From Dyella sp. A6 (GTDB lineage: Bacteria > Pseudomonadota > Gammaproteobacteria > Xanthomonadales > Rhodanobacteraceae), in assembly GCF_036320485.1 (NCBI RefSeq), contig NZ_CP132911.1, positions 1,240,001 to 1,304,000 of the forward strand: a DNA stretch of 64,000 nt, given 5' to 3'. Shown here one piece after another: positions 5,845-27,358 of the stretch (positions are counted from its first letter, which is position 1; every line of letters starts with the position of its first letter). The notes beneath the pieces were generated by a model. The model did no database searches and was not told the DNA's origin. It saw only the letters and a list, made by a program, of their open reading frames with translations. A program made the position numbers and the translations under genes.

Positions 5845-6864
5845 ATGCGGGTACGTCTCGAAGATGTGGCACGCGAAGCCGGCGTTTCGCCCAAGACCGT
5901 GTCGCGCGTGCTCAACGACGAGGCCAACGTCAAGGACGACACGCGCCAGCGGGTACTGGCCGCCATGGAGGCGATGGATTATCACCCGCACCCCTCGGCG
6001 CGCAGCCTGGCCGGCAATCGCTCCTTCGTGGTGGCGATGCTGTACGACAACAACGACAACCCGACCTCGTCCTATCTGGCCGAGATCCAGGACGGCGTGC
6101 TGGAAGCCTGCGACGAGTATCACTACAGCATGATGGTGCGCCCGCTGCGGATGGGTGGCAGCGACTTCATCCAGCGCATCGACACCCTGATTTCCCGGCA
6201 CCATCCCGACGGCGTGGTGCTGACACCGCCGATTACCGATTACGCGCCCCTGCTCAAGCGCCTTGGCGAGCGCGGCGTGCCGTATGCCAGCGTGTCGCCG
6301 GTGAAGCGGCGTGGCTGCATCGGCGTGACCATGGACGAGCGCCAGGCCGCACGGGCGATGGTGGAACACCTGATCGGGCTGGGACACCGGAGGATTGCCC
6401 ACGTGCTGGGCATCGCCAATCACGGCGCCAGCCGCTGGCGCCTGGCGGGTTATCGCGACGCCCTGGCCGCGGCCGGCCTGCCGGAAGACCCCGAGCTGGT
6501 CGTGCAGGGCGGCTTCACCTTCGGTTCGGGTGTGGCCGCCGCGCGCCAGCTGCTGTCGTTGGGCAAGCGCAAGCGCCCCACCGCGGTGTTCGCCGCCAAC
6601 GACGACATGGCTGCCGGGGTGATGTGGGTAGCCGGCGAATACGGGTTGAAGATGCCGCGCGACCTGTCCGTCTGCGGTTTCGACGACACGCCGCTGGCCA
6701 GCCAGTTGTGGCCGGCCCTGACCACGGTCCGGCAGCCCAGCCGCGAGATGGGACGCCTGGCCGCCCTGCAGGTGCTGGACAGCTTGCGCGGCCGCGGGCC
6801 GGGTCGGCTGGTGGAGGTGCCTTACTCGCTGGAGCTGCGCGATTCGACGGCCGCCGCGCCCTGA
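5845..6864 (+). CDS. LacI-family transcriptional regulator
   Basis: A 339-residue regulator. The N-terminal LacI helix-turn-helix reads LEDVAREAGVSPKTVSRVL, followed by the hinge region (PHPSARSLAGNRS) and a periplasmic-binding-protein-like effector domain. That domain carries the family landmarks DGVVLTPP, GHRRIAHVLG, TAVFAANDDMAAGV and VCGFDDTPLASQLWPALTTV. AGGAGA at 5835-5840 selects ATG 5845; the ATG at 5830 overlaps this site and is less likely. LacI-type regulators usually control sugar or nucleoside genes bound by the same effector, but no such genes are adjacent, so the target is unknown. Confidence 0.93.
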   Translation: MRVRLEDVAREAGVSPKTVSRVLNDEANVKDDTRQRVLAAMEAMDYHPHPSARSLAGNRSFVVAMLYDNNDNPTSSYLAEIQDGVLEACDEYHYSMMVRPLRMGGSDFIQRIDTLISRHHPDGVVLTPPITDYAPLLKRLGERGVPYASVSPVKRRGCIGVTMDERQAARAMVEHLIGLGHRRIAHVLGIANHGASRWRLAGYRDALAAAGLPEDPELVVQGGFTFGSGVAAARQLLSLGKRKRPTAVFAANDDMAAGVMWVAGEYGLKMPRDLSVCGFDDTPLASQLWPALTTVRQPSREMGRLAALQVLDSLRGRGPGRLVEVPYSLELRDSTAAAP

Positions 6865-10619: not shown

Positions 10620-10645
10620 GGCGGTGTCAATCTAGAAGTGCACCA
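10620..10645. repeat. Inverted repeat of the IS30 element, transposase 3' end
   Basis: Twenty-six bases matching the reverse complement of 11710-11735 at about 20 positions; best conserved in the outer GGCGGT and inner AAGTGCACCA. Confidence 0.85.
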
Positions 10646-11690
10646 TCGATGGCATCGGCCAGATCATCTCTGCCCATGGCACGGATGAACATTTCTGCAG
10701 GGCAGTGGTAATCGAGAGTGGCACGTGGCCGGAGGTTCATGCGTCGGGCGATCGCGTCGAGCTGCTTCTGGCTGTAGACCGACAAGTCCGTACCTTTAGG
10801 CAGGTATTGGCGCAGCAGGCCATTGGTGTTCTCGCAGATGCCGCGTTGCCAAGGGCTACGTGGGTCGGCGAAGTAGATCGCTAATCCAGTGCGCTCCGAT
10901 AGCGTCCGGTAGAGCGCCATTTCCTTGCCCTGATCGTAAGTCAGCGTCTGGCGCAGTTCCGGTGGCAGCGGCCGGAATGCGCGGCTGAAGCCTTTCAGCG
11001 CATCCTCCGCCGAACACCCCTCCATCTTCACCAGCTTCAGGAAACGTGTCCGACGATCCACCAGTACGCCCACCGAGGATCGGTTACGGGCGCCTTTGAT
11101 GAAGTCGCCTTCCCAGTGGCCGGGCAACAGCCGTTCATTGGCTTCGAGTGGACGATCATGAATGCTCGGCAAGTCGTGCATCCGGCCGCGCCGGTTCGCA
11201 CCCTGACCACGCGGCCGACGCGCACATTTGTGCTGCCGCAGAAGTGCGACCAGGCCCGCCGCAGTTCGCCGCGTGGCGCGGCATAGATCGCGGTGTAGAT
11301 CGTCTCGTGCGACACGTGCTTGGCTCGCTCATCCGGGTGATGACGCCGCAGTGTGCGACTCACCTGTTGAGGTGACCAGCCCTTGCCCAGCAAGCGGCGC
11401 ACGAGGCACCACAGCTGACCGTCCCGCCGCAATTTGCGCTCGCGCCGCGGCTTACGTGCCAGGCGCCGGGCGCGTTGGCCGGCTCGACTGGCGTCGTAGC
11501 TCAACCTTGGCCGACCCATCCGAGGCAGGACGGACGGTTCCTGGTGACCATTGCGAGCCAGCTCCCGCGAAATCGTGCTGGGTGAGCGACCCAGCATCAG
11601 GGCGAGCTGCCGGGCACTCTCCCCCCGAGCCTTGCCGACCATGATCGCGCCCCGTTCTTCGGCGCTCAGATGTCCATAGTGCTGACCCAT
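10627..11690 (-). pseudogene. IS30-family transposase, interrupted by a 1-nt frameshift
   Basis: The frame starting at ATG 11690 (MGQHYGHLSAEERGAI) gives the IS30 N-terminal helix-turn-helix (SARQLALMLGRSPSTISREL) and reads well to APRGELRRA. It then shifts near 11250-11256, where GCC-CTG-GTC would be expected but GCC-TGG-TCG is present. One base appears deleted. The other frame continues the protein to 10627 with the DDE residues: D in GHWEGDFIKG, D in TYDQGKEMA and E in WQRGICENTNG. Restoring one base would give a full-length transposase. No slippery heptamer is seen at the site, so programmed frameshifting is unlikely and the copy is probably inactive unless helped in trans. Confidence 0.88.
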
Positions 11691-12832: not shown

Positions 12833-13861
12833 TCAGCTGGAATGGCTGCCCGCGCTTGCCGCAGCCTTGCGCACGTAGGCGAGCAAGGCATCGTCGACCG
12901 AGCTGCCGCTGCGCAGCTCGGGCTCTTTCGCATAGGCCTCGCGGATCTTCGCGTGGGTGGCGGGGTCGTCGCCGGCGTATTCGCGGAACAGCGTCATCCA
13001 GCGTTGCGCCATCGCCTTCACGCTGGGGTCGTCCGATGGCACGCCGTCGGCGAGCGCGCTGTGCAACGCGGCGATGAGTTCGGGCCAAACATGCATCTGC
13101 CTGCCGTAGTGCTGGCGCATGCGCCGCATCTCGTGCGCGTCGAGGTAGCGGGCAAAGATCGCCAGTCGTACAGCGACCAGCGACTGCTCCACGAAGCGCT
13201 CCAGCTCGGGCGTGATGCCGCTGCGTTCGCGCATGCCGGGTTCGCTTTCGGTCATCGAACGCAGGCGCAGCAGAAAGGCCGGGTTGTTGCCGGTGCCGCG
13301 GCCTATCATTTCCATCCATCGCAACGCGAGGGTCTGTGCGTCGTGGTCGTCGGGCCTGGTACCGCGGTCCATCGCCGATTGCACGGCGGCAACCAGGGCG
13401 CTCCATTCCGCAAGCACATCCGGGTCGGTGTGCAGCGGCAGGCGTTCCAGTTCCTCGGGCGAAAAATACTTCTCGTACATGGTCATCAGCTCCAGCGTGT
13501 CCAGCCAGTCGGCCAGGTCGGGTGACTGTCCGGATGTCAGTTGCGTGCGCAGATGCACCAGCCGCTCGCGCAGGCGGGCGCCGGCGGCAAGGTCGCGGTC
13601 GAGCTGCGCGATCTGGCGGTCGATCAGCTTGGCCAAGGGTGCCTGCGGCCCGGACAAGGCGGTTCCGATGTCGGCCAGTGAAAGACCGAGCTGACGCAGC
13701 GCCTGGATGCGGTGCAGCCGCTCGATGTTCGCCTTGTCGTACAGGCGGTAGCCGGCAGCGGAACGCACCGCGGGAACCAGCAGGCCGATGGCATCGTAGT
13801 GGTGCAGGGTGCGGACGGTGAGTCCGCTGCGCCTGGCCAGTTCGCCTACGGTCATCGGCAT
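12833..13861 (-). CDS. MerR-family regulator with two tandem TipAS-like domains
   Basis: A 342-residue protein. Residues 1-65 are a MerR winged helix (VGELARRSGLTVRTLHHYDAIGLL...GYRLYDKANIERLHRIQALRQLGLSL), followed by the dimerisation helix (residues 75-110). Two similar helical domains follow, at about 131-226 and 239-331. Both match the TipA effector domain, and they align with each other (WSALVAAVQSAM.. with WPELIAALHSAL.., ALRWMEM with AQRWMTL). TipAS domains bind thiopeptide-like and other drugs and activate efflux or self-expression. The start at 13861 follows AGGAG 10 nt upstream. The divergent neighbour is prpE, 141 bp away, but a regulatory link is not shown. Confidence 0.88.
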   Translation of the reverse strand: MPMTVGELARRSGLTVRTLHHYDAIGLLVPAVRSAAGYRLYDKANIERLHRIQALRQLGLSLADIGTALSGPQAPLAKLIDRQIAQLDRDLAAGARLRERLVHLRTQLTSGQSPDLADWLDTLELMTMYEKYFSPEELERLPLHTDPDVLAEWSALVAAVQSAMDRGTRPDDHDAQTLALRWMEMIGRGTGNNPAFLLRLRSMTESEPGMRERSGITPELERFVEQSLVAVRLAIFARYLDAHEMRRMRQHYGRQMHVWPELIAALHSALADGVPSDDPSVKAMAQRWMTLFREYAGDDPATHAKIREAYAKEPELRSGSSVDDALLAYVRKAAASAGSHSS

Positions 13862-14002
13862 GGTGGAGGTGCTCCTTTGGTGCGTGCAGATGGATGCTGC
13901 GGGCTGACGTAACGTGAGGGTCAAGCGTGCATACGACCATTGTCGTGCTGCCGCCTGCCGGGTGCGAGGCTAGGCTGTGAGCGGATACTGATGGAGGCGG
14001 GC

Positions 14003-15898
14003 ATGGACTACGAAACGTTCTACCGGCAGTCGATCGAGGCGCCGGAAGCGTTCTGGGCCGAACAGGCACGGCGCATCCACTGGGACACCCCGCCGCAGCA
14101 GATTCTCGACGCCTCGAATCCGCCGTTCCGTCGCTGGTTCGTCGGTGGCACCACCAACCTCTGCTACAACGCGCTGGATCGTCACCTGAATGAGCGCGGC
14201 GACCAGCGCGCGCTGGTCGCGATTTCCACCGAAACGGATATCACACGCGAGTTCAGCTACCGCGAACTGCATCGCGAGGTGAACGTGTGCGCCGCGGTGC
14301 TGCAGTCGCTGGGCGTGGGGCGTGGCGACCGTGTGGTGATCTACCTGCCGAACATTGCCGAGGCGGTGTTCGCAATGCTCGCCTGCGCGCGGCTGGGTGC
14401 GATCCACTCGGTGGTATTCGGCGGCTTTGCGGCGCACAACCTGGCCCTGCGTATCGACGATGCGCAGCCGAAGCTGCTGATCTGCGCGGATGCCGGCATG
14501 CGCGGGGGCAAGGTGATCCCATACAAGCCGCTGGTGGACGCGGCGCTGGACGAAGCCTCGGCGCCGCCGCCGCATGTGTTGATCGTCGACCGCGGGCTGG
14601 ATACGCAGATGCTGCGCGTGCCTGGCCGCGATACCGACTACGCGGAACTGCGCGCGAAGTACATTGGTGCCGACGTGCCGGTGGTGTGGCTGGAGTCGAA
14701 CGAACCCAGCTATCTGCTCTACACCTCCGGCACCACCGGCAAGCCCAAGGGTGTGCAGCGCGACACCGGCGGCTATGCCGTGGCGATGGCGATGTCGATC
14801 CGCTGCATTTTCGACATCGCGCCGGGGCAGGTGATGTTCTCCACCTCGGACGTGGGCTGGGCGGTGGGGCATTCCTACAACGTGTACGGTCCGCTGATCG
14901 GCGGCGCCACGTCGCTGCTGTACGAGGGCCTGCCCACACGGCCCGATCCGGGCGTCTGGTGGGGGCTGTGCGAGAAGTACGGCGTGCGCACGATGTTCTC
15001 CTCGCCGACCGCGATCCGTGTGCTGAAGAAGCAGGACGCCAGCTGGCTGAAGAAGCATGACCTGTCCGCGCTGAAGTGGCTGTTCCTGGCCGGCGAGCCG
15101 CTGGACGAGCCCACCGCGCAATGGATCAACGACGCGCTGGGCGTGCCGGTGATAGACAACTACTGGCAGACCGAAACCGGCTGGCCGGCGATCACCCTGA
15201 TGCCCGGGCTGGACCTGAAACCGGCGAAGCTGGGTTCGCCCGGCCTGCCGGCTCCGGGGTACCGGATGAAGGTGATCGACGAGAACAGCGGCAAGGAAGT
15301 GCCGCCGGGCAACAAGGGCGTGCTGGTGCTGGAGCCGCCGCTGCCGCCGGGCTGCCTCAGCACGATCTGGCGCGACGACGACCGCTACGTGCACAGCTAC
15401 TTCAGCCATTTCCGCGAACAGCTCTACAGCTCGCTGGACTGGGCGATCCGCGATGCCGATGGTTACACCTTCATCCTTGGCCGTACCGACGACGTGATCA
15501 ACGTGGCCGGACACCGGCTGGGCACGCGCGAGATCGAGGAGTCGGTCTCCGGCTATCCGGCTGTGGCCGAAGCGGCGGTGATCGGCGTGAAGGACGCGCT
15601 GAAGGGGCAGGTGCCGGTGGTGTTCGCCACTCTGAAGCAGCAGGTCGCCGACGACTCGGCCACGGCCGCACGCGGCATGCAGCAGTGCGTGGTGGATCAG
15701 CTGGGCAGCGTGGCCCGACCGGCACGGATCTACGTGGTCAACGCACTGCCCAAGACGCGTTCGGGCAAGCTGCTGCGGCGTTCGCTGCAGGCCTTGGCCG
15801 AGCAGCGCGATCCGGGCGACCTGTCCACGCTGGATGATCCCGCTGCGCTGGAAGAAATCCGGCAGGCGCTGGAGCGCGGGCCGGACCAGGGTGCCTGA
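14003..15898 (+). CDS. prpE: Propionate--CoA ligase PrpE (acyl-CoA synthetase)
   Basis: A 631-residue AMP-forming synthetase of PrpE length. It activates propionate to propionyl-CoA, the entry substrate of the methylcitrate cycle. Landmarks are the PrpE-like RWFVGGTTNLCYNALDRHL (about residues 44-62), the P-loop YTSGTTGKPKGVQRDTGG, the adenine-binding DNYWQTETGWP, the hinge GRTDDVINVAGHRLGTREIE and the catalytic Lys region TRSGKLLRR near the end. Acetyl-CoA synthetase is the main alternative, but the PrpE-type motifs and the prp genes 5-13 kb downstream favour propionate. GGAGG at 13993-13997 selects ATG 14003. Confidence 0.9.
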   Translation: MDYETFYRQSIEAPEAFWAEQARRIHWDTPPQQILDASNPPFRRWFVGGTTNLCYNALDRHLNERGDQRALVAISTETDITREFSYRELHREVNVCAAVLQSLGVGRGDRVVIYLPNIAEAVFAMLACARLGAIHSVVFGGFAAHNLALRIDDAQPKLLICADAGMRGGKVIPYKPLVDAALDEASAPPPHVLIVDRGLDTQMLRVPGRDTDYAELRAKYIGADVPVVWLESNEPSYLLYTSGTTGKPKGVQRDTGGYAVAMAMSIRCIFDIAPGQVMFSTSDVGWAVGHSYNVYGPLIGGATSLLYEGLPTRPDPGVWWGLCEKYGVRTMFSSPTAIRVLKKQDASWLKKHDLSALKWLFLAGEPLDEPTAQWINDALGVPVIDNYWQTETGWPAITLMPGLDLKPAKLGSPGLPAPGYRMKVIDENSGKEVPPGNKGVLVLEPPLPPGCLSTIWRDDDRYVHSYFSHFREQLYSSLDWAIRDADGYTFILGRTDDVINVAGHRLGTREIEESVSGYPAVAEAAVIGVKDALKGQVPVVFATLKQQVADDSATAARGMQQCVVDQLGSVARPARIYVVNALPKTRSGKLLRRSLQALAEQRDPGDLSTLDDPAALEEIRQALERGPDQGA

Positions 15899-18299: not shown

Positions 18300-18342
18300 T
18301 GGGTCGTCTCCATTTGTGGTTGGTGAGTGGGTCGATGGGGGA

Positions 18343-18372
18343 ATTCTAGGTGACGCCTATCGATCATTCCAA
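18343..18372 (-). promoter_or_regulatory. ahpC sigma-70 promoter
   Basis: On the minus strand, -35 TTGGAA (18372-18367) and -10 TAGAAT (18348-18343) are separated by 18 bp. The predicted transcription start is near 18336, giving a leader of about 37 nt that holds the ribosome binding site. Confidence 0.7.
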
Positions 18373-18408
18373 TTGATTGTCGAGATGTGGTCGATTGATC
18401 ATGCCTAT
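18372..18408 (-). promoter_or_regulatory. OxyR binding site upstream of ahpC
   Basis: Read on the minus strand the site is ATAG-N7-CAAT-N7-ATCT-N7-CAAT, against the OxyR consensus ATAG-N7-CTAT-N7-ATAG-N7-CTAT. All three 7-nt spacers are exact, and the site abuts the -35 hexamer, the usual place for OxyR activation. oxyR itself is not in the window. Confidence 0.75.
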
Positions 18409-18487
18409 GAATGGCCGATGCAGTCACTACCCGTCATCGTGTCGGTAGCGCGTGACAGACGGATGGCTGCCGGCAGGCAGGGGATGA

Positions 18488-19705
18488 TCACCGTCGACGG
18501 GTGGGACGGGCGCCGGCGTAGTTCGCGCGCGGCCGGATCAGCCCGCCGGCTTCCTGCTGTTCCAGTGCGTGTGCCAGCCAGCCGGCCATGCGCCCGGCGG
18601 CGAACAGCGACAGGCTTGCCGTTGCGTCCTGGCCGTGCAACAGGGCCGTCGCGGCCAGTGCGAAATCCAGGCTGGGCGCGCGTCCGCTGCCGGCGGCCAC
18701 CGCGTCGACCAGGCGTTCGATGCGGGCCATTCCGGGCAGGCGCGGTCGCGCCGCTGCCAGCATTTCCAGCAGCAGGGCAGCGCGCGGATCACCTTCCGGA
18801 TAGAGCGGGTGGCCGAAGCCGGGCAGGTTCTCGCCGCGGCGCAGGCGTTCCCGCATATCGTCTTCCGGATGGCGTTCGCGCATGGCCTGCCGCAGCAGCG
18901 CATGCGCACGCGCGGTGGCACCGCCGTGCTGGGGGCCGGACAGGGCGGCCAGCCCGGCGCCGGCCGCCGCGTGAAGGCTGGCGCCGGTAGAAGCGGCCAC
19001 GCGCGTGGCAAACGCTGAGGCATTCAGTTCATGGTCGGCGCAGAGCACCAACGTGCTTCGTACCAGGTCCGGCAGGCTGGCATGCGTGTTGTTCCAGGCA
19101 AGGGCCAGTTGCTGGTGGATCGGCCGGCTGCCCGGGCGGGTGTTGGCGAGCAGGGCGGCGGTCTCGCGCAGCAAACGGGCGGCGCCTTCCCTACGCTGCT
19201 GCGGGTGCAGGCTGTGTGCATCGGGCGCGGCCAATGCCAGCAGCGGCAGTGCCGCCGCGGTGCGTTCGAGTGGCGGCAGTTCGCGATGGCGCATCAGGCC
19301 TTGCACCGCAGCGGGCCAGACGGACGGAGGTGCCGTGCCGAAAGGATCGTTGTCGTCGCAGGCCCACAGCAGGCGCGCGACTTCCTCCAGGGTCGCGCCG
19401 TCGCGGGCCAGCGCGATGGCGGACTGCCCCCGGTAGTACTGGCCGTGCGGACGGATCAGCGAGATCCGGGTTTCCAGCACCGGCAGGCCCCAGGTCAGGC
19501 TGTGTGCGGCCCCTTGTGCGGCGCCGCGCCCGGCCTGGCGCCGTTCGATCAGGCCGTCGATGTCGTCGACCCGGTATTCGCGGCTGCGACCGTCGGGACC
19601 GGCACGCGAGTCGATCTTGCCGCGGCTGACATAGGCGTACAGGGTGGCCAGGCTGATGCCCAGCCGGGCGGCGGCGTCGCGAGCGGGCAGGTAGGTGGCG
19701 TGCAT
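18488..19705 (-). CDS. Helix-turn-helix / citrate synthase fusion protein
   Basis: A 405-residue protein. Residues 3-55 are an excisionase/MerR-type helix-turn-helix (LPARDAAARLGISLATLYAYVSRGKI...REYRVDDIDGLI); residues 70-400 are a citrate-synthase fold. The catalytic triad is kept: His225 in ADHELNAS, His260 in GPQHGGA and Asp347 in PSLDFALA. The substrate-binding GFGHPLYPEGDPRA and RPRANYAG are also present, so catalysis or ligand binding is possible. It is divergent from prpB, and tandem TTGATCAA palindromes lie 10-36 bp upstream of its start, in the position of an autoregulatory operator. I infer a metabolite-sensing regulator of the methylcitrate genes. The ATG at 19705 has no ribosome binding site; AATATA 5 nt upstream would give a leaderless mRNA. 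Confidence 0.85.
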   Translation of the reverse strand: MHATYLPARDAAARLGISLATLYAYVSRGKIDSRAGPDGRSREYRVDDIDGLIERRQAGRGAAQGAAHSLTWGLPVLETRISLIRPHGQYYRGQSAIALARDGATLEEVARLLWACDDNDPFGTAPPSVWPAAVQGLMRHRELPPLERTAAALPLLALAAPDAHSLHPQQRREGAARLLRETAALLANTRPGSRPIHQQLALAWNNTHASLPDLVRSTLVLCADHELNASAFATRVAASTGASLHAAAGAGLAALSGPQHGGATARAHALLRQAMRERHPEDDMRERLRRGENLPGFGHPLYPEGDPRAALLLEMLAAARPRLPGMARIERLVDAVAAGSGRAPSLDFALAATALLHGQDATASLSLFAAGRMAGWLAHALEQQEAGGLIRPRANYAGARPTRRR

Positions 19706-20011
19706 GCAGATATATTGATTGTTTTGATCAAGATTGATCAACATGTTTTTGAGGAGCAAAGTAGCGCCCGTCCCGGATGAGGCGGATCTGCGATGCTCAG
19801 GATCGAGCGGGTATTTGATCTCGAAGCATGGCAAGTCGCTCACGACCGGTCGCACGCGGTGCATTTGGGTGCGTGATGGCACCTGGGCCGGCAGGCGCCC
19901 TGTCGAGACGCCTGCCGGTGCTGGGCGGATGCCGCCGCTGCCGTGATTTCGTGCGTTGCGGCATGGCCTGTCCGGCGCATCGCCTACACTATGAGGTTTC
20001 GGAGAGTCACC
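19706..20011. promoter_or_regulatory. Divergent control region between the HTH-citrate synthase gene and prpB
   Basis: 306 bp without a gene. It holds the TTGATCAA palindromes (19715-19741), a TTTGATCTCGAA half-site-like sequence near 19814, a CGACCGGTCG palindrome (19843-19852) and a 10-bp perfect hairpin (19888-19897 with 19909-19918). TACACT at 19985-19990 is a good prpB -10 box. No -35 box is found at the right distance, suggesting that prpB transcription needs an activator. Confidence 0.6.
19715..19741. promoter_or_regulatory. Tandem TTGATCAA palindromes, candidate operator
   Basis: Two perfect 8-bp palindromes TTGATCAA at 19724-19731 and 19734-19741, with centres 10 bp (one helical turn) apart. 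A degenerate third copy, TTGATTGT, lies at 19715-19722. They sit immediately upstream of the HTH-citrate synthase start codon, over its presumed -35 region, so binding would be expected to repress that gene. Confidence 0.6.
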
Positions 20012-20896
20012 ATGTCCCCAATCGATTCCGCCGGCGCACGTTTCCGCGCCGCTCTCGCCGAAGAACAGCCGTTGCAGGTGATCGGCGCGATCACCGCCTA
20101 CGCGGGCCTGATGGCCAGGCGCGTGGGTTACAAGGCGCTGTATCTGTCCGGCGGCGGTGTGGCCGCCAACTCGCTGGGCATGCCGGACCTGGGCATCAGC
20201 ACGATGGAAGACGTGCTGATCGACGCCCGCCGTATCGTCGACGCCACCGGCCTGCCGCTGCTGGTCGACATCGATACCGGCTGGGGCGGCGCGTTCAACA
20301 TCGCGCGCACCATCCGTTCGTTCGAGCGCGTGGGCGTGGCCGCCGTGCACATGGAGGACCAGGTCGGCCAGAAGCGCTGCGGCCATCGTCCCGGCAAGGA
20401 AGTGGTGTCGAAGGACGAAATGGTCGACCGCGTGAAGGCGGCGGTGGATGCGCGGACCGATCCGGGCTTCGTGATCATGGCGCGCACCGACGCGGCGGCA
20501 GCGGAGGGCATCGATGCGGCGATCGAGCGCGCGGTGGCCTACGTCGAGGCTGGCGCCGACATGATCTTCCCCGAAGCGATGAAAACGCTGGACGACTACC
20601 GCAAGTTCAAGGCGGCGGTGAAGGTGCCGATCCTGGCCAACCTTACCGAGTTCGGCTCCACGCCGTTCTTCACCACCGACGAGCTGCGCTCGGCCAACGT
20701 GGATATAGCGTTGTACTGCTGCGGTGCCTATCGCGCCATGAACAAGGCCGCGCTGAATTTCTACGAGACGGTGCGCCGCGAAGGCACCCAGAAAAACATC
20801 ATCGACACCCTGCAGACGCGCGAGGAGCTTTACGACTTCCTCGGCTACCACGCCTACGAGCGCAAGCTCGACGAGCTGTTCTCGAAGAAAGGCTGA
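20012..20896 (+). CDS. prpB: 2-methylisocitrate lyase
   Basis: A 294-residue PEP mutase/isocitrate lyase superfamily enzyme that splits 2-methylisocitrate into pyruvate and succinate, the last step of the methylcitrate cycle. Landmarks are [17 protein letters not shown] (residues 45-61), the Mg2+-binding VDIDTGWGG, the signature [11 protein letters not shown] with catalytic Cys123, and [18 protein letters not shown] at 20001-20006, 6 nt before ATG 20012, fixes the start. prpC follows 74 bp later on the same strand. Confidence 0.96.
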
Positions 20897-20970: not shown

Positions 20971-22116
20971 ATGAGCGAGCAAGTCCTTCCCAAGGCCAAG
21001 AAATCGGTGGCGCTGTCCGGTGTCGCTGCCGGCAACACGGCGCTGTGCACGGTCGGCCGCAGCGGCAACGATCTGCATTACCGCGGCTATGACATCCATG
21101 ACCTTGCGGCCAAGGGCTGCTTCGAGGAAGTGGCGCATCTTCTGGTCTACGGCGTGCTGCCGAACTGGACCGAGCTGCAGAACTACAAGGCCCGCCTGAA
21201 GCGCCTGCGCGGCCTGCCGGCGCCGGTGAAGGCCGCGATGGAGCTGCTGCCGGCGGCGACCCATCCGATGGACGTGCTGCGCACCGGCTGCTCGGTGATG
21301 GGCACGGTGCTGCCGGAAAAGGACGACCACAACATCACCGGTGCGCGCGATATCGCCGACCGCCTGATGGCCAGCTTCGGATCGATGCTGCTGTACTGGT
21401 ACCACTTCAGCCACAACGGCAAGCGCATCGAGACCGAGACCGATGATGATTCGATCGCCGCGCACTTCCTGCACCTGCTGCACGGCAAGGCGCCCAGTGA
21501 GCTGCATGCCACCGCGCTGGACAAGTCGCTGGTGCTGTACGCCGAGCACGAGTTCAATGCGTCGACCTTCACCGCGCGCGTGATCGCCGGTACCGGGTCG
21601 GACATGTACTCGTCGATCACCGGCGCGATCGGCGCGCTGCGCGGTCCTAAGCACGGCGGCGCGAACGAGGTGGCGATGGAGATCATCGCGCGCTATCGCA
21701 GCGCCGACGACGCCGAGGCGGACATCCGCGCCCGCGTCGAGCGCAAGGAGATCATCATCGGCTTCGGCCACCCGGTGTACACGGTGGCCGATCCGCGCAA
21801 CGTGATCATCAAGGAGATCTCGCGCAAGCTGTGCACCGAGGGCGGCAATCCGGTGCTGTTCGACGTGTCCGAGCGCATCGAGAATGTGATGGGTGAGATC
21901 AAGAAGATGTTCCCCAACCTCGACTGGTTCTCGGCCAGCGCCTACCACATGATGGGCGTGCCGACCGCGATGTTCACGCCGCTGTTCGTGATCGCGCGTA
22001 CCTCCGGCTGGAGCGCGCACGTGATCGAGCAGCGCCAGGACGGCAAGATCATCCGTCCCAGTGCCAACTACACTGGGCCGGAAGACCAGACCTACGTGCC
22101 GATCGACAAGCGCTGA
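20971..22116 (+). CDS. prpC: 2-methylcitrate synthase
   Basis: A 381-residue citrate-synthase family enzyme condensing propionyl-CoA with oxaloacetate. The PrpC-like N-terminus reads [27 protein letters not shown]. Catalytic residues are His193 (AEHEFNAS), His228 (GPKHGGANE) and Asp318 (NLDWFSAS), and the C-terminus is [24 protein letters not shown] upstream supports ATG 20971. A longer open frame from 19828 runs through prpB out of frame and is an artefact. The gene ends at a hairpin terminator; the cycle continues with acnD beyond an oppositely oriented terC. Confidence 0.96.
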
Positions 22117-22394: not shown

Positions 22395-23075
22395 TCAAGT
22401 GATGCGGGTAGGCGGTTGCCGCCGACGAGCCAGCCAGCCACCGCCGCAGATGCCAAGCACGAACAGCACGTCGAGTCCGTACCTGGCCCACGGACGCGGC
22501 TTGAACCAGGCGTCGAGCAGTCCGTCGTGGGCGATCATGCGGGCTGCGGTCCAGGCAATGGCGCCGGCGCCAACGTAGATGATCGCCGGATAGCGTGCGA
22601 TCAGCCGCAGGATCAGCGTGCTGCCCCAGACCACCAGCGGAACGCTGATGAGCAGACCGAGGATGACCAGTCCCATATGACCTTTCGACGCGCCAGCAAT
22701 CGCCAGTACGTTGTCCAGGCCCATCAGTGCGTCGGCCACAACGATGGTCTTCAGCGCAGCCCAGAAGGTGTCGCCGGGGCGGATGTCGCGGTCTTCTTCC
22801 TCGTGCCGGAGCAGCTTCCAGGCGATCGGCAGCAGGACCAGTCCGCCGGCCAGCATCAGTCCGGGCAGCTTGAGCAGGTACACCACGACGGCGGTCAACA
22901 GCACGCGTATGCCGACGGCGCCGAAGGTGCCCCAGAACACGGCCTTGCGCTGCAGCTCGGGCGGCAGGTTGCGTGCGGCCAGTGCGATAACAATGGCATT
23001 GTCGCCGGCCAGCACGAGGTCCAGCAGCACGATGGCCATCAGGCCGGAGAAAAGCTCGGGGGTAAGGAAGGCCAT
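22395..23075 (-). CDS. TerC-family integral membrane protein (probable Mn2+ exporter)
   Basis: A 226-residue polytopic membrane protein with about seven hydrophobic segments. It has the two family signatures LVLAGDNAIVIALAARNLP (about residues 20-38) and VVADALMGLDNVLAIAGAS (about 117-135), whose Asp and Asn residues line the ion path. TerC/YjbE-type proteins are linked to metal export, notably manganese. A yybP-ykoY riboswitch in the leader strongly supports a Mn2+ role here. The start at 23075 has AGGA 11 nt upstream. The gene is inserted against the direction of the prp genes, between prpC and acnD. Confidence 0.92.
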   Translation of the reverse strand: MAFLTPELFSGLMAIVLLDLVLAGDNAIVIALAARNLPPELQRKAVFWGTFGAVGIRVLLTAVVVYLLKLPGLMLAGGLVLLPIAWKLLRHEEEDRDIRPGDTFWAALKTIVVADALMGLDNVLAIAGASKGHMGLVILGLLISVPLVVWGSTLILRLIARYPAIIYVGAGAIAWTAARMIAHDGLLDAWFKPRPWARYGLDVLFVLGICGGGWLARRRQPPTRIT

Positions 23076-23129
23076 GCGGTTCGGTTCCTGCGCGCCGGAC
23101 AAATGCAGCAACCACGGGTGCACGCTGCC

Positions 23130-23300: not shown

Positions 23301-23476
23301 GCCGGTAACGCCGTACTGGACATTTACTCTCATTACACTAGACCCGTTTTGCATCGCTTTGGCGTTTGCCGCGGACATCGTTCCGGCAGCCTCGCGATCG
23401 GTCGTCGGGTGACGACGCACGGGCCACTCACAGGCCTGCTGTCAGCGGGTGTTTCCCTTCAGGATTCCAGACCGTC

Positions 23477-26071
23477 ATGAATACCAACTACCGCCAGCCC
23501 CTTCCCGGCACTTCGCTGGACTATTTCGATGCGCGCGCCGCCGTGGAGGCGATCCAGCCGGGCGCCTACGATGCCTTGCCGTACACCTCGCGCGTGCTCG
23601 CCGAGAACCTGGTGCGTCGCTGCGATCCGGCGATCCTCGACGAGTCGCTGAAGCAGTTGATCGAGCGCAAGCGCGAGCGCGATTTTCCGTGGTTCCCGGC
23701 ACGCGTGGTGTGCCACGACATCCTGGGCCAGACCGCGCTGGTCGATCTGGCCGGCCTGCGCGACGCGATCGCCGATCGCGGTGGCGATCCGGCCAAGGTG
23801 AACCCGGTGGTGCCGGTGCAGCTGATCGTCGACCACTCGCTGGCGGTGGAATGCGGCGGCTTCGATCCAGACGCGTTCAGGAAGAACCGCGCGATCGAGG
23901 ATCGCCGCAACGAGGACCGCTTCCACTTCATCGAGTGGACCAAGCAGGCGTTCGAGAACGTCGACGTGATCCCGCCGGGCAACGGCATCATGCACCAGAT
24001 CAACCTGGAGAAGATGTCGCCGGTGGTTGGCGTACGTGATGGCGTGGCGTATCCGGACACCTGCGTCGGTACCGACAGCCACACCCCGCACGTGGATGCG
24101 CTCGGCGTCATCGCCGTCGGCGTGGGTGGTCTGGAGGCCGAGAGCGTGATGCTCGGCCGCGCCTCGTGGATGCGCCTGCCGAACATCGTCGGTGTCGAAC
24201 TCACCGGCAAGCGCCAGAGCGGCATCACCGCCACCGATATCGTGCTGGCGCTCACCGAGTTCCTGCGCAAGGAAAAGGTGGTCGGTGCCTTCCTTGAATT
24301 CCGCGGCGAAGGGGCAGCCAGCCTCACCCTGGGCGATCGCGCCACCATCTCCAACATGGCGCCCGAATACGGCGCCACCGCCGCGATGTTCTTCATCGAC
24401 AACCAGACCCTGGACTACCTGCGCCTCACCGGTCGCAGCGACGAGCAGGTCAGGCTGGTCGAGACCTACGCCAGGACGGCGGGCCTGTGGGCCGATACGC
24501 TTGCCGATGCGCAGTACGAGCGCACGCTGACGTTCGACCTGTCCGCGGTGGTGCGCAACATGGCCGGCCCGTCCAATCCACACAAGCGACTGCCGACGTC
24601 CGACCTGGCGGCGCGCGGGATCGCCGGCGAGTGGACCGAACAGCCGGGGCAGATGCCCGACGGTGCGGTGATCATTGCCGCGATCACCAGTTGCACCAAC
24701 ACCAGCAACCCGCGCAACGTGATTGCCGCCGCGCTGCTGGCACGCAACGCCAACGCGCGTGGCCTGACCCGCAAGCCGTGGGTGAAGAGCTCGCTGGCAC
24801 CCGGTTCGCGGGCGGTGCAGTTGTATCTGGAAGAAGCGAAGCTGCTGCCGGAGCTGGAGAAGCTGGGCTTCGGCATCGTGGCGTTCGCCTGCACCACCTG
24901 CAACGGCATGTCGGGCGCGCTCGATCCGAAGATCCAGCAGGAGATCATCGACCGCGACCTGTATTCGACGGCCGTGCTGTCTGGCAACCGCAACTTCGAC
25001 GGGCGCATCCATCCGTATGCCAAGCAGGCCTTCCTGGCTTCGCCGCCGCTGGTGGTGGCCTACGCCATCGCCGGCACCATCCGCTTCGACATCGAGAAGG
25101 ACGTGCTGGGCATCGATGCGGATGGCCAGCCGGTGATGCTCAAGGACATCTGGCCGTCGGACGAGGAGATCGATGCGATCGTGTCCGCCAGCGTGAAGCC
25201 GGAGCAGTTCCGCACGGTGTACGAGCCGATGTTCGCTCGCACCGGACACAGCGGTACCCGTGCCGCGCCGCTCTATGCATGGCGTCCGCAGAGCACCTAC
25301 ATACGATGCCCGCCGTACTGGGAGGGCGCTTTGGCGGGCGAGCGCACGCTGACCGGGATGCGCCCGCTGGCGGTGCTTGGCGACAACATCACCACCGATC
25401 ACCTGTCGCCGTCCAACGCGATCCTGCCGACCAGCGCGGCAGGCGAGTACCTTGCGAAAATGGGTTTGCCGGAAGAGGACTTCAATTCCTACGCGACCCA
25501 TCGCGGCGACCATCTCACCGCGCAGCGCGCCACCTTCGCCAACCCGACCCTGGTCAACGAGATGGCTGTGGTCGATGGTGAAGTGAAGCGTGGTTCGCTG
25601 GCCCGGGTGGAGCCGGAAGGCAAGGTCATGCGCATGTGGGAAGCGATCGAGACCTACATGGACCGCAAGCAGCCGCTGATCGTGATCGCCGGTGCCGACT
25701 ACGGCCAGGGTTCCTCGCGCGACTGGGCCGCGAAGGGCGTGCGTCTGGCGGGCGTGGAAGCGATCGCGGCCGAGGGCTTCGAGCGCATCCATCGCACCAA
25801 CCTGATCGGCATGGGCGTGCTGCCGCTGGAGTTCAAGCCGGGCACCAACCGCAAGACGCTGGCGATCGATGGCAGCGAGACCTTCGATGTGATCGGCGAG
25901 CGCAGGCCGGGCGCCGATCTCACCCTGGTCATCCACCGCAAGGACGGCGAGCGTGTCGAGGTGCCGGTGACCTGTCGCCTGGATACCGCCGAGGAGGTGC
26001 TGATCTACGAAGCGGGTGGGGTGCTGCAGCGTTTCGCGCAGGACTTCATCGAGGCGTCGCAGGCTGCCTGA
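23477..26071 (+). CDS. acnD: 2-methylcitrate dehydratase, Fe-S dependent (AcnD)
   Basis: An 864-residue aconitase-superfamily enzyme of AcnD length (about 865). It dehydrates 2-methylcitrate toward 2-methylaconitate in the AcnD/PrpF version of the methylcitrate cycle. The 4Fe-4S ligands are Cys406 (TSCTNTSNP) and Cys472/Cys475 (ACTTCNG). Other active-site stretches are DSHTPHVDALGVIAVGVGG, LGDNITTDHLSPSNAI and ADYGQGSSRDWAAKG. The start at ATG 23477 (MNTNYRQPLPG) is preceded by a weak AGGAT site; the in-frame extension to 23366 is not conserved-looking. prpF follows 102 bp downstream. Confidence 0.96.
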   Translation: MNTNYRQPLPGTSLDYFDARAAVEAIQPGAYDALPYTSRVLAENLVRRCDPAILDESLKQLIERKRERDFPWFPARVVCHDILGQTALVDLAGLRDAIADRGGDPAKVNPVVPVQLIVDHSLAVECGGFDPDAFRKNRAIEDRRNEDRFHFIEWTKQAFENVDVIPPGNGIMHQINLEKMSPVVGVRDGVAYPDTCVGTDSHTPHVDALGVIAVGVGGLEAESVMLGRASWMRLPNIVGVELTGKRQSGITATDIVLALTEFLRKEKVVGAFLEFRGEGAASLTLGDRATISNMAPEYGATAAMFFIDNQTLDYLRLTGRSDEQVRLVETYARTAGLWADTLADAQYERTLTFDLSAVVRNMAGPSNPHKRLPTSDLAARGIAGEWTEQPGQMPDGAVIIAAITSCTNTSNPRNVIAAALLARNANARGLTRKPWVKSSLAPGSRAVQLYLEEAKLLPELEKLGFGIVAFACTTCNGMSGALDPKIQQEIIDRDLYSTAVLSGNRNFDGRIHPYAKQAFLASPPLVVAYAIAGTIRFDIEKDVLGIDADGQPVMLKDIWPSDEEIDAIVSASVKPEQFRTVYEPMFARTGHSGTRAAPLYAWRPQSTYIRCPPYWEGALAGERTLTGMRPLAVLGDNITTDHLSPSNAILPTSAAGEYLAKMGLPEEDFNSYATHRGDHLTAQRATFANPTLVNEMAVVDGEVKRGSLARVEPEGKVMRMWEAIETYMDRKQPLIVIAGADYGQGSSRDWAAKGVRLAGVEAIAAEGFERIHRTNLIGMGVLPLEFKPGTNRKTLAIDGSETFDVIGERRPGADLTLVIHRKDGERVEVPVTCRLDTAEEVLIYEAGGVLQRFAQDFIEASQAA

Positions 26072-26173: not shown

Positions 26174-27358
26174 ATGGCTCATCTTCCCCAGATCCGGATT
26201 CCCGCCACCTATATGCGTGGCGGTACCAGCAAGGGTGTGTTCTTTCGTCTGCAGGACCTGCCCGAGGCGGCGCAGGTGCCGGGCGCCGTGCGTGATGCCC
26301 TGCTGCAGCGTGTGATCGGCAGTCCCGATCCCTATGGCAAGCAGATCGACGGCATGGGGGGTGCGAGCTCCAGCACCAGCAAGACGGTGATCGTGTCCAG
26401 GAGCGTGCGTCCGGATCATGACGTGGACTACCTGTTCGGCCAGGTGGCGATCGACAGGGCCTTCGTCGACTGGAGCGGCAACTGCGGCAACCTGTCGGCA
26501 GCGGTCGGTCCGTTTGCCATTGCGGCGGGGCTGGTCGATCCGTCACGGGTGCCACGCGACGGCATCGCGATCGTGCGCATCTGGCAGGCCAACATCGGCA
26601 AGACCATCATTGCCCATGTGCCGATGACCGACGGCGCGGTGCAGGAGACCGGCGATTTCGAACTGGACGGGGTGACCTTCCCGGCGGCCGAAGTACAACT
26701 GGAATTCATGGACCCGGCCGCCGAGGAAGAGGGTGCGGGAGGAGCCATGTTTCCTACCGGAAATCTGGTCGACGACCTGGACGTGCCGGGTGTTGGCGTG
26801 CTCCGGGCGACCATGATCAATGCCGGCATCCCCACAATTTTTGTCGAGGCTGCGGCCATCGGCTACACCGGCACCGAACTGCAGGACGCCATCAACAGTG
26901 ACGAAAAGGCGCTGGCGATGTTCGAGGCCATCCGTGCACACGGTGCGCTGCGCATGGGCCTGATCCGGTCGCTCGACGAGATCGCCACGCGCCAGCACAC
27001 GCCCAAGGTGGCCTTCGTTGCGCCGCCTGCCGACTACGTCGCCTCCAGCGGCAAGCCCGTGAAGGTGGGTGACGTCGATCTGCTGGTGCGTGCGATGTCG
27101 ATGGGCAAGCTGCATCACGCCATGATGGGTACGGCTGCGGTCGCGATCGGCACTGCGGCCGCCATTCCGGGCACGCTGGTGAACCTGGCCGCAGGGGGCG
27201 GTGAGCGCACGTCGGTACGTTTTGGCCATCCGTCGGGTACGCTGCGGGTAGGAGCCGAGGCGAAACGGGTCGATGGCGCGTGGATAGTCACCAAGGCCAT
27301 CATGAGCCGCAGCGCACGCGTACTGATGGAAGGGTGGGTACGCGTTCCCGCGCCGTAA
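26174..27358 (+). CDS. prpF: 2-methylaconitate cis-trans isomerase PrpF
   Basis: A 394-residue PrpF-family protein (diaminopimelate-epimerase fold) that isomerises trans- to cis-2-methylaconitate made by AcnD. Landmarks are the opening RIPATYMRGGTSKGVFFRL (residues 8-26), IDGMGGASSSTSKTVIV, the active-site DWSGNCGNLSAAVGPFAI with its Cys, and VRFGHPSGTLRVGAE near the end. AGGA is 11 nt upstream of ATG 26174. It is co-directional with acnD and probably forms a two-gene operon with it. Confidence 0.96.
   Translation: MAHLPQIRIPATYMRGGTSKGVFFRLQDLPEAAQVPGAVRDALLQRVIGSPDPYGKQIDGMGGASSSTSKTVIVSRSVRPDHDVDYLFGQVAIDRAFVDWSGNCGNLSAAVGPFAIAAGLVDPSRVPRDGIAIVRIWQANIGKTIIAHVPMTDGAVQETGDFELDGVTFPAAEVQLEFMDPAAEEEGAGGAMFPTGNLVDDLDVPGVGVLRATMINAGIPTIFVEAAAIGYTGTELQDAINSDEKALAMFEAIRAHGALRMGLIRSLDEIATRQHTPKVAFVAPPADYVASSGKPVKVGDVDLLVRAMSMGKLHHAMMGTAAVAIGTAAAIPGTLVNLAAGGGERTSVRFGHPSGTLRVGAEAKRVDGAWIVTKAIMSRSARVLMEGWVRVPAP

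Follow-up and report, generated by a model that had tools for sequence, protein, structure and literature searches.

We investigated a gene in a 64,000-nucleotide stretch of DNA from Dyella sp. A6 (contig NZ_CP132911.1; hereafter the window) whose product, HTH-CS, joins an N-terminal winged helix-turn-helix (HTH) domain to a full citrate-synthase fold. HTH-CS is encoded divergently from the methylcitrate (prp) operon, its enzyme fold retains the active site, and its gene is linked to a conserved DNA site, hereafter the operator, located next to its own start codon. The comparison of related sequences gives good support to HTH-CS being a family of enzyme-derived one-component transcription factors with a defined operator, for which no earlier description was found. 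We infer as probable that HTH-CS is an autoregulated local transcription factor, which would bind this operator, presumably as a repressor, and whose citrate-synthase fold would sense oxaloacetate and acyl-CoA or (methyl)citrate.

The first-pass annotation of the window had described an HTH joined to a citrate-synthase fold and placed divergent from prpB (start at 20012), and our analysis confirmed a winged-HTH fusion of 405 aa (Table 1). The HTH_17 match was barely above the Pfam cut-off (27.5 bits, cut-off 27), and the structure model displayed a winged HTH. The citrate-synthase fold (PF00285) exceeded its Pfam cut-off and took up the list of solved-structure matches. An NCBIfam scan revealed no match to the PrpR family (TIGR02329) in the HTH-CS protein. 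In the putative recognition helix, residues Y23, V26, and S27 were invariant among 61 aligned members, as was the following residue, R28.

A conserved operator at the HTH-CS start codon

The sequence TTGATCAATCTTGAT-N7-ATCAA was found shortly 5' of the start codon in all 16 unsplit orthologues (L001-L016), with one half-site base changed in L006. We further counted TCAATCTTGAT-N7-ATCAA in 51 HTH-CS loci of Proteobacteria, which were picked by protein similarity and not by the pattern. The 16 defined positions were matched exactly in 39 loci, with one mismatch in eight, two in two, and three in one, and with seven in the remaining locus, L059. The operator was consequently present at no more than 3/16 mismatches in 50 of the 51 loci, its core beginning 15-64 bp before the start codon, and the reversed pattern used as a control yielded 5 to 9 mismatches in every locus; these counts rest on related sequences and hence are not independent events. 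When the spacer was freed to 2-13 bp, a length of 7 ranked first in 44 of the 51 loci, a length of 2-3 in four, and none in three. Both half-sites were near-invariant across the 51 loci and the N7 spacer was variable.

On the basis of base composition, 0.0001 exact matches (C or A at the sixth place) were expected in the Dyella sp. A6 genome, and one was found. A 15-mer search allowing up to three mismatches identified elsewhere in this genome one site with two mismatches and 24 with three. The operator profile contained overlapping dyads centered at +14, +4.5, and +9 of the core, an arrangement that fits a dimer or two dimers.

Searches with the site lead to the gene

The exact site, searched without reference to the protein, occurred in 31 of 299 genomes of the phylum, once in each, and the reversed pattern yielded one site. 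A search with the 75-residue HTH part detected HTH-CS in 35 of the 299 genomes, also on plasmids (nine regions read), with the same site upstream; it superseded a class-level search at E <=1e-60, which was too strict (4 of 369 genomes). The results revealed that 28 of the 31 site-bearing genomes belonged to the 35 with HTH-CS. The N-terminus of the fusion lay within 150 bp of the site in 29 of 30 phylum loci, the exception being L107; the 31st locus, in G647, lies outside this count. A scan of GTDB contigs for the site returned at least 120 stretches, 80 of which were read. HTH-CS was present in 69 of these: it lay directly downstream and carried a YAYVSR-type helix in 57, had a variant helix in 10, and was truncated by the locus end in 2. 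The loci L126 and L141 end too soon for the fusion, and a citrate synthase lies on their opposite flank. At L155 (Burkholderia latens), an operator-like site at 6805-6829 lies near a short-chain dehydrogenase-like frame, with HTH-CS 2.9 kb away, and may represent a second target.

Site and gene also occurred together among 61 relatives of Dyella sp. A6. The exact site was found in 17 genomes, all within the 18 that carry HTH-CS (broken in two pieces in two of the 18); the 18th (G014) had the site with one mismatch, and the 43 relatives without HTH-CS had no exact site (Fisher p 3e-14, ignoring kinship). Where a relative's citrate-synthase match did not include the HTH part, a check of 12 such loci found no HTH. 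The exact site was single in 16 of the 17 site-bearing genomes, the exception being G010. The second site of G010 (L238 4829-4851, minus strand) is on another contig, approximately 260 bp ahead of prpC, and it is followed by an apparent acyl-CoA synthetase gene fragment where HTH-CS would be. Because this contig ends inside prpC, the second site may be an assembly effect.

Divergent neighbors and family relationships

We assembled 115 HTH-CS loci from 133 candidates, leaving out L017 and L018, in which the fusion is broken in two, and 16 others with no fusion or cut too short. Upstream DNA was available for 110 loci, and 111 were complete (361-439 aa) and entered the residue alignment. The divergent gene at the 110 loci encoded a citrate synthase in 66, PrpB in 17, a CoA-transferase in 13, DUF2332 in 5, a transporter in 2, and AcnD in 1; six were unclassified, one of which (L118) appeared CoA-transferase-like by eye. 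The 17 prpB cases came from relatives belonging to the same order as the window, from Pseudoxanthomonas, and from one Lysobacteraceae isolate. In the citrate-synthase class, the median start-to-start distance, measured from the most upstream start, was 77.5 bp. The fusions are thus not placed at random genome positions; random placement is what the first-pass annotation had named as contrary to its regulator proposal. Together with the family-wide operator at the start codon, the non-random neighbors support that proposal and favor DNA binding and autoregulation. Throughout the sequences compared, the operator and the HTH helix of HTH-CS stay whichever enzyme adjoins.

In a single FastTree run (313 columns, 55 chosen sequences), HTH-CS formed a clade of its own (support 0.79), apart from PrpC and the partner citrate synthases. 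A Glu replaced the catalytic Asp in 58 of 58 aligned partner citrate synthases, and B. subtilis CitA has Glu at the same place; HTH-CS and the window's PrpC keep Asp. On the basis of the separate clade and this Asp/Glu difference, we rejected a recent duplication of the neighboring enzyme as the origin of HTH-CS.

Active site and candidate sensor domain

The active-site and oxaloacetate-binding residues were retained in 109-111 of the 111 aligned members. The retained catalytic triad and the substrate-binding Arg residues that had been claimed for HTH-CS were both present; the Arg residues are R308, R372, and R391 at the oxaloacetate-binding positions. The triad itself had been misassigned as His225, His260, and Asp347, and it consists of His260, His299, and Asp347, with His225 at what we take to be an oxaloacetate-binding position. 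Moreover, HTH-CS was invariant at His197 and Arg216, unlike the partner citrate synthases and the window's PrpC. The pocket is strongly constrained despite a separate enzyme at hand, which argues for ligand binding.

Citrate synthase is closed by oxaloacetate through a domain movement that is established for the enzyme, and a similar ligand-driven closure of the citrate-synthase part may move the HTH pair of HTH-CS. Since HTH-CS preserves its catalytic residues even with a separate enzyme next to it, we tentatively suggest that it might sense oxaloacetate and acyl-CoA jointly, as an AND gate, through a ternary complex or slow catalysis. On this reading, HTH-CS would be a widespread family of transcription factors that monitor metabolism with an intact citrate-synthase active site. 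Its operator and HTH helix would have changed very little over evolution, and the gene under its control would have differed, being citrate synthase, the methylcitrate operon, or CoA-transferase.

Proposed mechanism and alternative explanations

We propose that the winged HTH of HTH-CS binds the operator, which separates the HTH-CS start codon from the divergent prp operon, and that HTH-CS would thereby control its own gene and very likely also prpBC with the genes that follow. The citrate-synthase fold is dimeric in known enzymes, and as a dimer it would pair the HTH domains. The same fold would be the sensor, with oxaloacetate and propionyl-CoA, or 2-methylcitrate or citrate, in the active site; the bound ligand would close the domains and alter DNA binding. 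Repression relieved by the ligand is the most likely logic, given the position of the operator at the start codon and the close spacing of the two starts in the citrate-synthase class.

Several observations weigh against this mechanism. The operator was absent from L059, nine of the 80 sites read in the contig scan, including that of L155, had no directly adjoining HTH-CS, and six of the 110 divergent genes fell outside every class. In the window, control of prpB is assumed and would have to span approximately 270 bp from the operator. Furthermore, seven genomes of the same family that were read keep prpB and prpC without HTH-CS, indicating that HTH-CS is dispensable for prp, and in none of these seven did a regulator gene directly adjoin prpB.

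The same regulator might instead have the opposite sign and activate the divergent prp operon in the manner of PrpR, a reading that we consider possible but less probable. PrpR is an activator that responds to 2-methylcitrate, and it holds the same divergent position in one relative (G057); the window operator, moreover, lies well upstream of prpB. However, an operator at the regulator's own start codon is typical of autorepression, and in compact members the operator must overlap the divergent promoter.

We regard as rather doubtful that HTH-CS is a bifunctional trigger enzyme, namely an active (methyl)citrate synthase with operator binding as an additional function and a regulatory role secondary to catalysis. 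The retained active site notwithstanding, HTH-CS was far under every curated NCBIfam (methyl)citrate synthase cut-off (best 149.3 bits, cut-off 421.3, TIGR01800; 21 of 21 listed families below cut-off). In addition, a separate citrate synthase or prpB is divergent in 83 of 110 loci, with prpC behind prpB in the loci read, so that a second enzyme would be redundant. The probable Caulobacter member of the family also failed to complement gltA (PMC7083601), a failure that poor expression or another acyl-CoA could explain.

It is very improbable that the conserved DNA serves a separate regulator as its operator and that the HTH of the fusion is idle. In favor of such a regulator, the half-sites TTGAT/ATCAA are also found in FNR boxes, TTGAT-N4-ATCAA. 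Nevertheless, site and fusion co-occur side by side, genome by genome, and the fusion-free relatives lack the exact site; the putative recognition helix is near-invariant. FNR halves are N4 apart, whereas the freed-spacer analysis favored 7, and we rejected an FNR/ANR box on this basis.

Least probable of all, the site could be a core promoter or a 5' leader RNA element, as it is AT-rich, lies just 5' of the start codon, and has inverted halves that can pair as RNA; yet its half-sites are near-invariant while N7 varies. The promoter was rejected because the core reaches the last 2 bases before the ATG, or into it, in 12 of 50 members, which leaves too little distance for a promoter driving from that start (we chose as start the closest ATG lying 15 or more codons ahead of the helix), and because no sigma-70-like promoter with 16-18 nt spacing was found at 19680-20030. 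MerR regulators bind between over-spaced -35 and -10 elements. An RNA hairpin was rejected because the folding of two leaders, at z -0.93 and z -0.35, was ordinary.

Relation to known systems

The closest parallel in design is provided by the MocR/GabR proteins, one-component regulators that likewise combine an N-terminal winged HTH with a full enzyme fold (PMC6917764). They differ from HTH-CS in having an aspartate aminotransferase fold with pyridoxal phosphate (PLP), another HTH family, and a ligand that is not of the citrate type. HTH-CS shares the divergent position and conserved dyad operator of HTH_17/MerR-type one-component regulators. With PrpC, CitA, and GltA it shares the fold and the active-site residues, and it differs from them in its extra N-terminal winged HTH, its own clade, the invariant His197 and Arg216, and scores far below the enzyme cut-offs. 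PrpR resembles HTH-CS in standing divergent from prpB, but it is an unrelated sigma-54-type activator. The expectation that the cluster holds no PrpR was borne out, and none scored over the TIGR02329 cut-off anywhere in the Dyella sp. A6 genome.

Caulobacter has citA, citB, and citC (CCNA_03757/03758); CitB complemented E. coli gltA and CitC did not, and the identity to B. subtilis CitA was 37% for CitB and 32% for CitC (CCNA_03758) (PMC7083601). We found that C. vibrioides encodes an HTH-CS protein of 383 aa (P0159) and that HTH-CS is divergent from a citrate synthase in three Caulobacter loci (L134, L137, and L185). By BLAST, the C. vibrioides HTH-CS had 30% identity to B. subtilis CitA, and the partner citrate synthase of a Caulobacter sp. 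had 36%. Given this protein, these loci, and the similar identities, CitC is very probably an HTH-CS member. In the text available, CitC is a citrate-synthase paralogue without gltA complementation and is not called a regulator, and "helix-turn-helix" is absent from the main text (PMC7083601). Caulobacter CitA, a citrate synthase with a catalysis-independent regulatory role, resembles our reading of HTH-CS; unlike HTH-CS, it is GltA-type and acts negatively on CtrA in the cell cycle, with no DNA-binding domain mentioned in the available part of that source (PMC7083601).

The earlier statement that such fusions are known from annotation, with no mechanism described, agreed with our search of the open-access PMC literature, which lies outside most subscription journals and in which no paper recognizably described an HTH-citrate synthase regulator. 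In the source annotation of the best 120 relatives, the proteins were mostly citrate synthases where named, and two were helix-turn-helix proteins. If HTH-CS are regulators, the annotation "citrate synthase" misleads, and Proteobacteria, among them Caulobacter, Agrobacterium, Bradyrhizobium, and Paraburkholderia, would contain an overlooked family of central-metabolism sensors. There would then also be a reason why Caulobacter CitC failed as an enzyme. One short DNA site now predicts where each HTH-CS would act.

Variation of the prp locus among relatives

The features of the locus are listed in Table 1.

Table 1. Features of the HTH-CS and prp region, in window coordinates
Feature	Coordinates	Strand	Evidence or remark
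HTH-CS (HTH-citrate synthase fusion), 405 aa, candidate prp-locus regulator	18488..19705	-	Pfam scan and structure model
Winged helix-turn-helix domain, residues 1-58	19532..19705	-	Pfam HTH_17; structure model
Putative recognition helix, residues 19-27 (LATLYAYVS)	19625..19651	-	Predicted role as recognition helix
Linker, residues 59-75	19481..19531	-	pLDDT <50 for residues 62-75 (model)
Citrate-synthase fold, residues 76-405, candidate sensor domain	18491..19480	-	Pfam; model
His225, presumed oxaloacetate-binding position	19031..19033	-	His in 109/111 aligned members
His260, catalytic position	18926..18928	-	His in 111/111 aligned members
His299, catalytic position	18809..18811	-	His in 109/111 aligned members
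Asp347, catalytic position	18665..18667	-	Asp in 111/111 aligned members
Extended operator TTGATCAATCTTGATCAAAACAATCAATATATC, 33 bp, ending 3 bp before the HTH-CS start codon	19709..19741	-	Conserved in 16/16 orthologues
Operator core TCAATCTTGAT-N7-ATCAA	19715..19737	-	Sole exact site in 3.7 Mb genome
Apparent relic: first codons of the DUF2332 gene found in some relatives between HTH-CS and prpB	19793..19808	+	Alignment with G002
prpB, methylisocitrate lyase, divergent gene	20012..20896	+	TIGR02317, 426 bits, cut-off 354 (scanned from 19946)
prpC, 2-methylcitrate synthase	20971..22116	+	NF009006, 689 bits, cut-off 550
acnD, 2-methylisocitrate dehydratase	23459..26071	+	TIGR02333, 1799 bits, cut-off 1420
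prpF	26174..27358	+	TIGR02334, 754 bits, cut-off 441

In the relative G002 (L236), the gene order is ahpC, HTH-CS, DUF2332, prpB, and prpC. Window positions 19710-19808 aligned with the start of the G002 DUF2332 gene (E 5e-15, with 77% across 101 columns), and the alignment resumed at 19948, before prpB. The DUF2332 gene therefore seems to have been lost from the window between HTH-CS and prpB, leaving an apparent scar at 19710-20011, and this loss would account for the distance between the operator and prpB. Two Roseomonas-type plasmids likewise carry DUF2332 divergent from HTH-CS, and this recurrence suggests a possible role of DUF2332 in the metabolism of acyl-CoA or citrate.

Relatives without HTH-CS differed in what stands beside prpB. 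G003 and G013 have the order ahpC, prpB, prpC, yjbE, and acnD and lack both the fusion and the site. In G007 (L230), G011 (L229), and G032 (L233), the divergent position of HTH-CS next to prpB is taken by a sodium:dicarboxylate symporter gene, possibly one for propionate or methylcitrate uptake. An acyl-CoA synthetase gene lies upstream of prpB in G024, and G031 has a 525-bp gap with no frame >100 aa. In G057, PrpR (TIGR02329, 715 bits, cut-off 499) is divergent from prpB and HTH-CS is lacking; G048, of the same genus, has HTH-CS and no PrpR over the cut-off. In L016 (G028), acnD replaces prpB beside HTH-CS, and the HTH-CS gene ends at a natural TGA 10 residues earlier than in the window.

A yjbE/TerC-type membrane protein gene is located between prpC and acnD (22395-23123, minus strand), and it follows prpC also in four of 10 relatives' loci read. 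A MerR-type regulator with two TipAS-like stretches (12833-13861, minus strand) is divergent from prpE (13997-15898) and may control prpE separately. An AT-rich stretch upstream of ahpC (18340-18420), alike by eye in several relatives, is perhaps a regulator site belonging to ahpC itself. Finally, two overlapping frames at 10627-11690 (minus strand) resemble, by eye, an IS30-type transposase with a frameshift.
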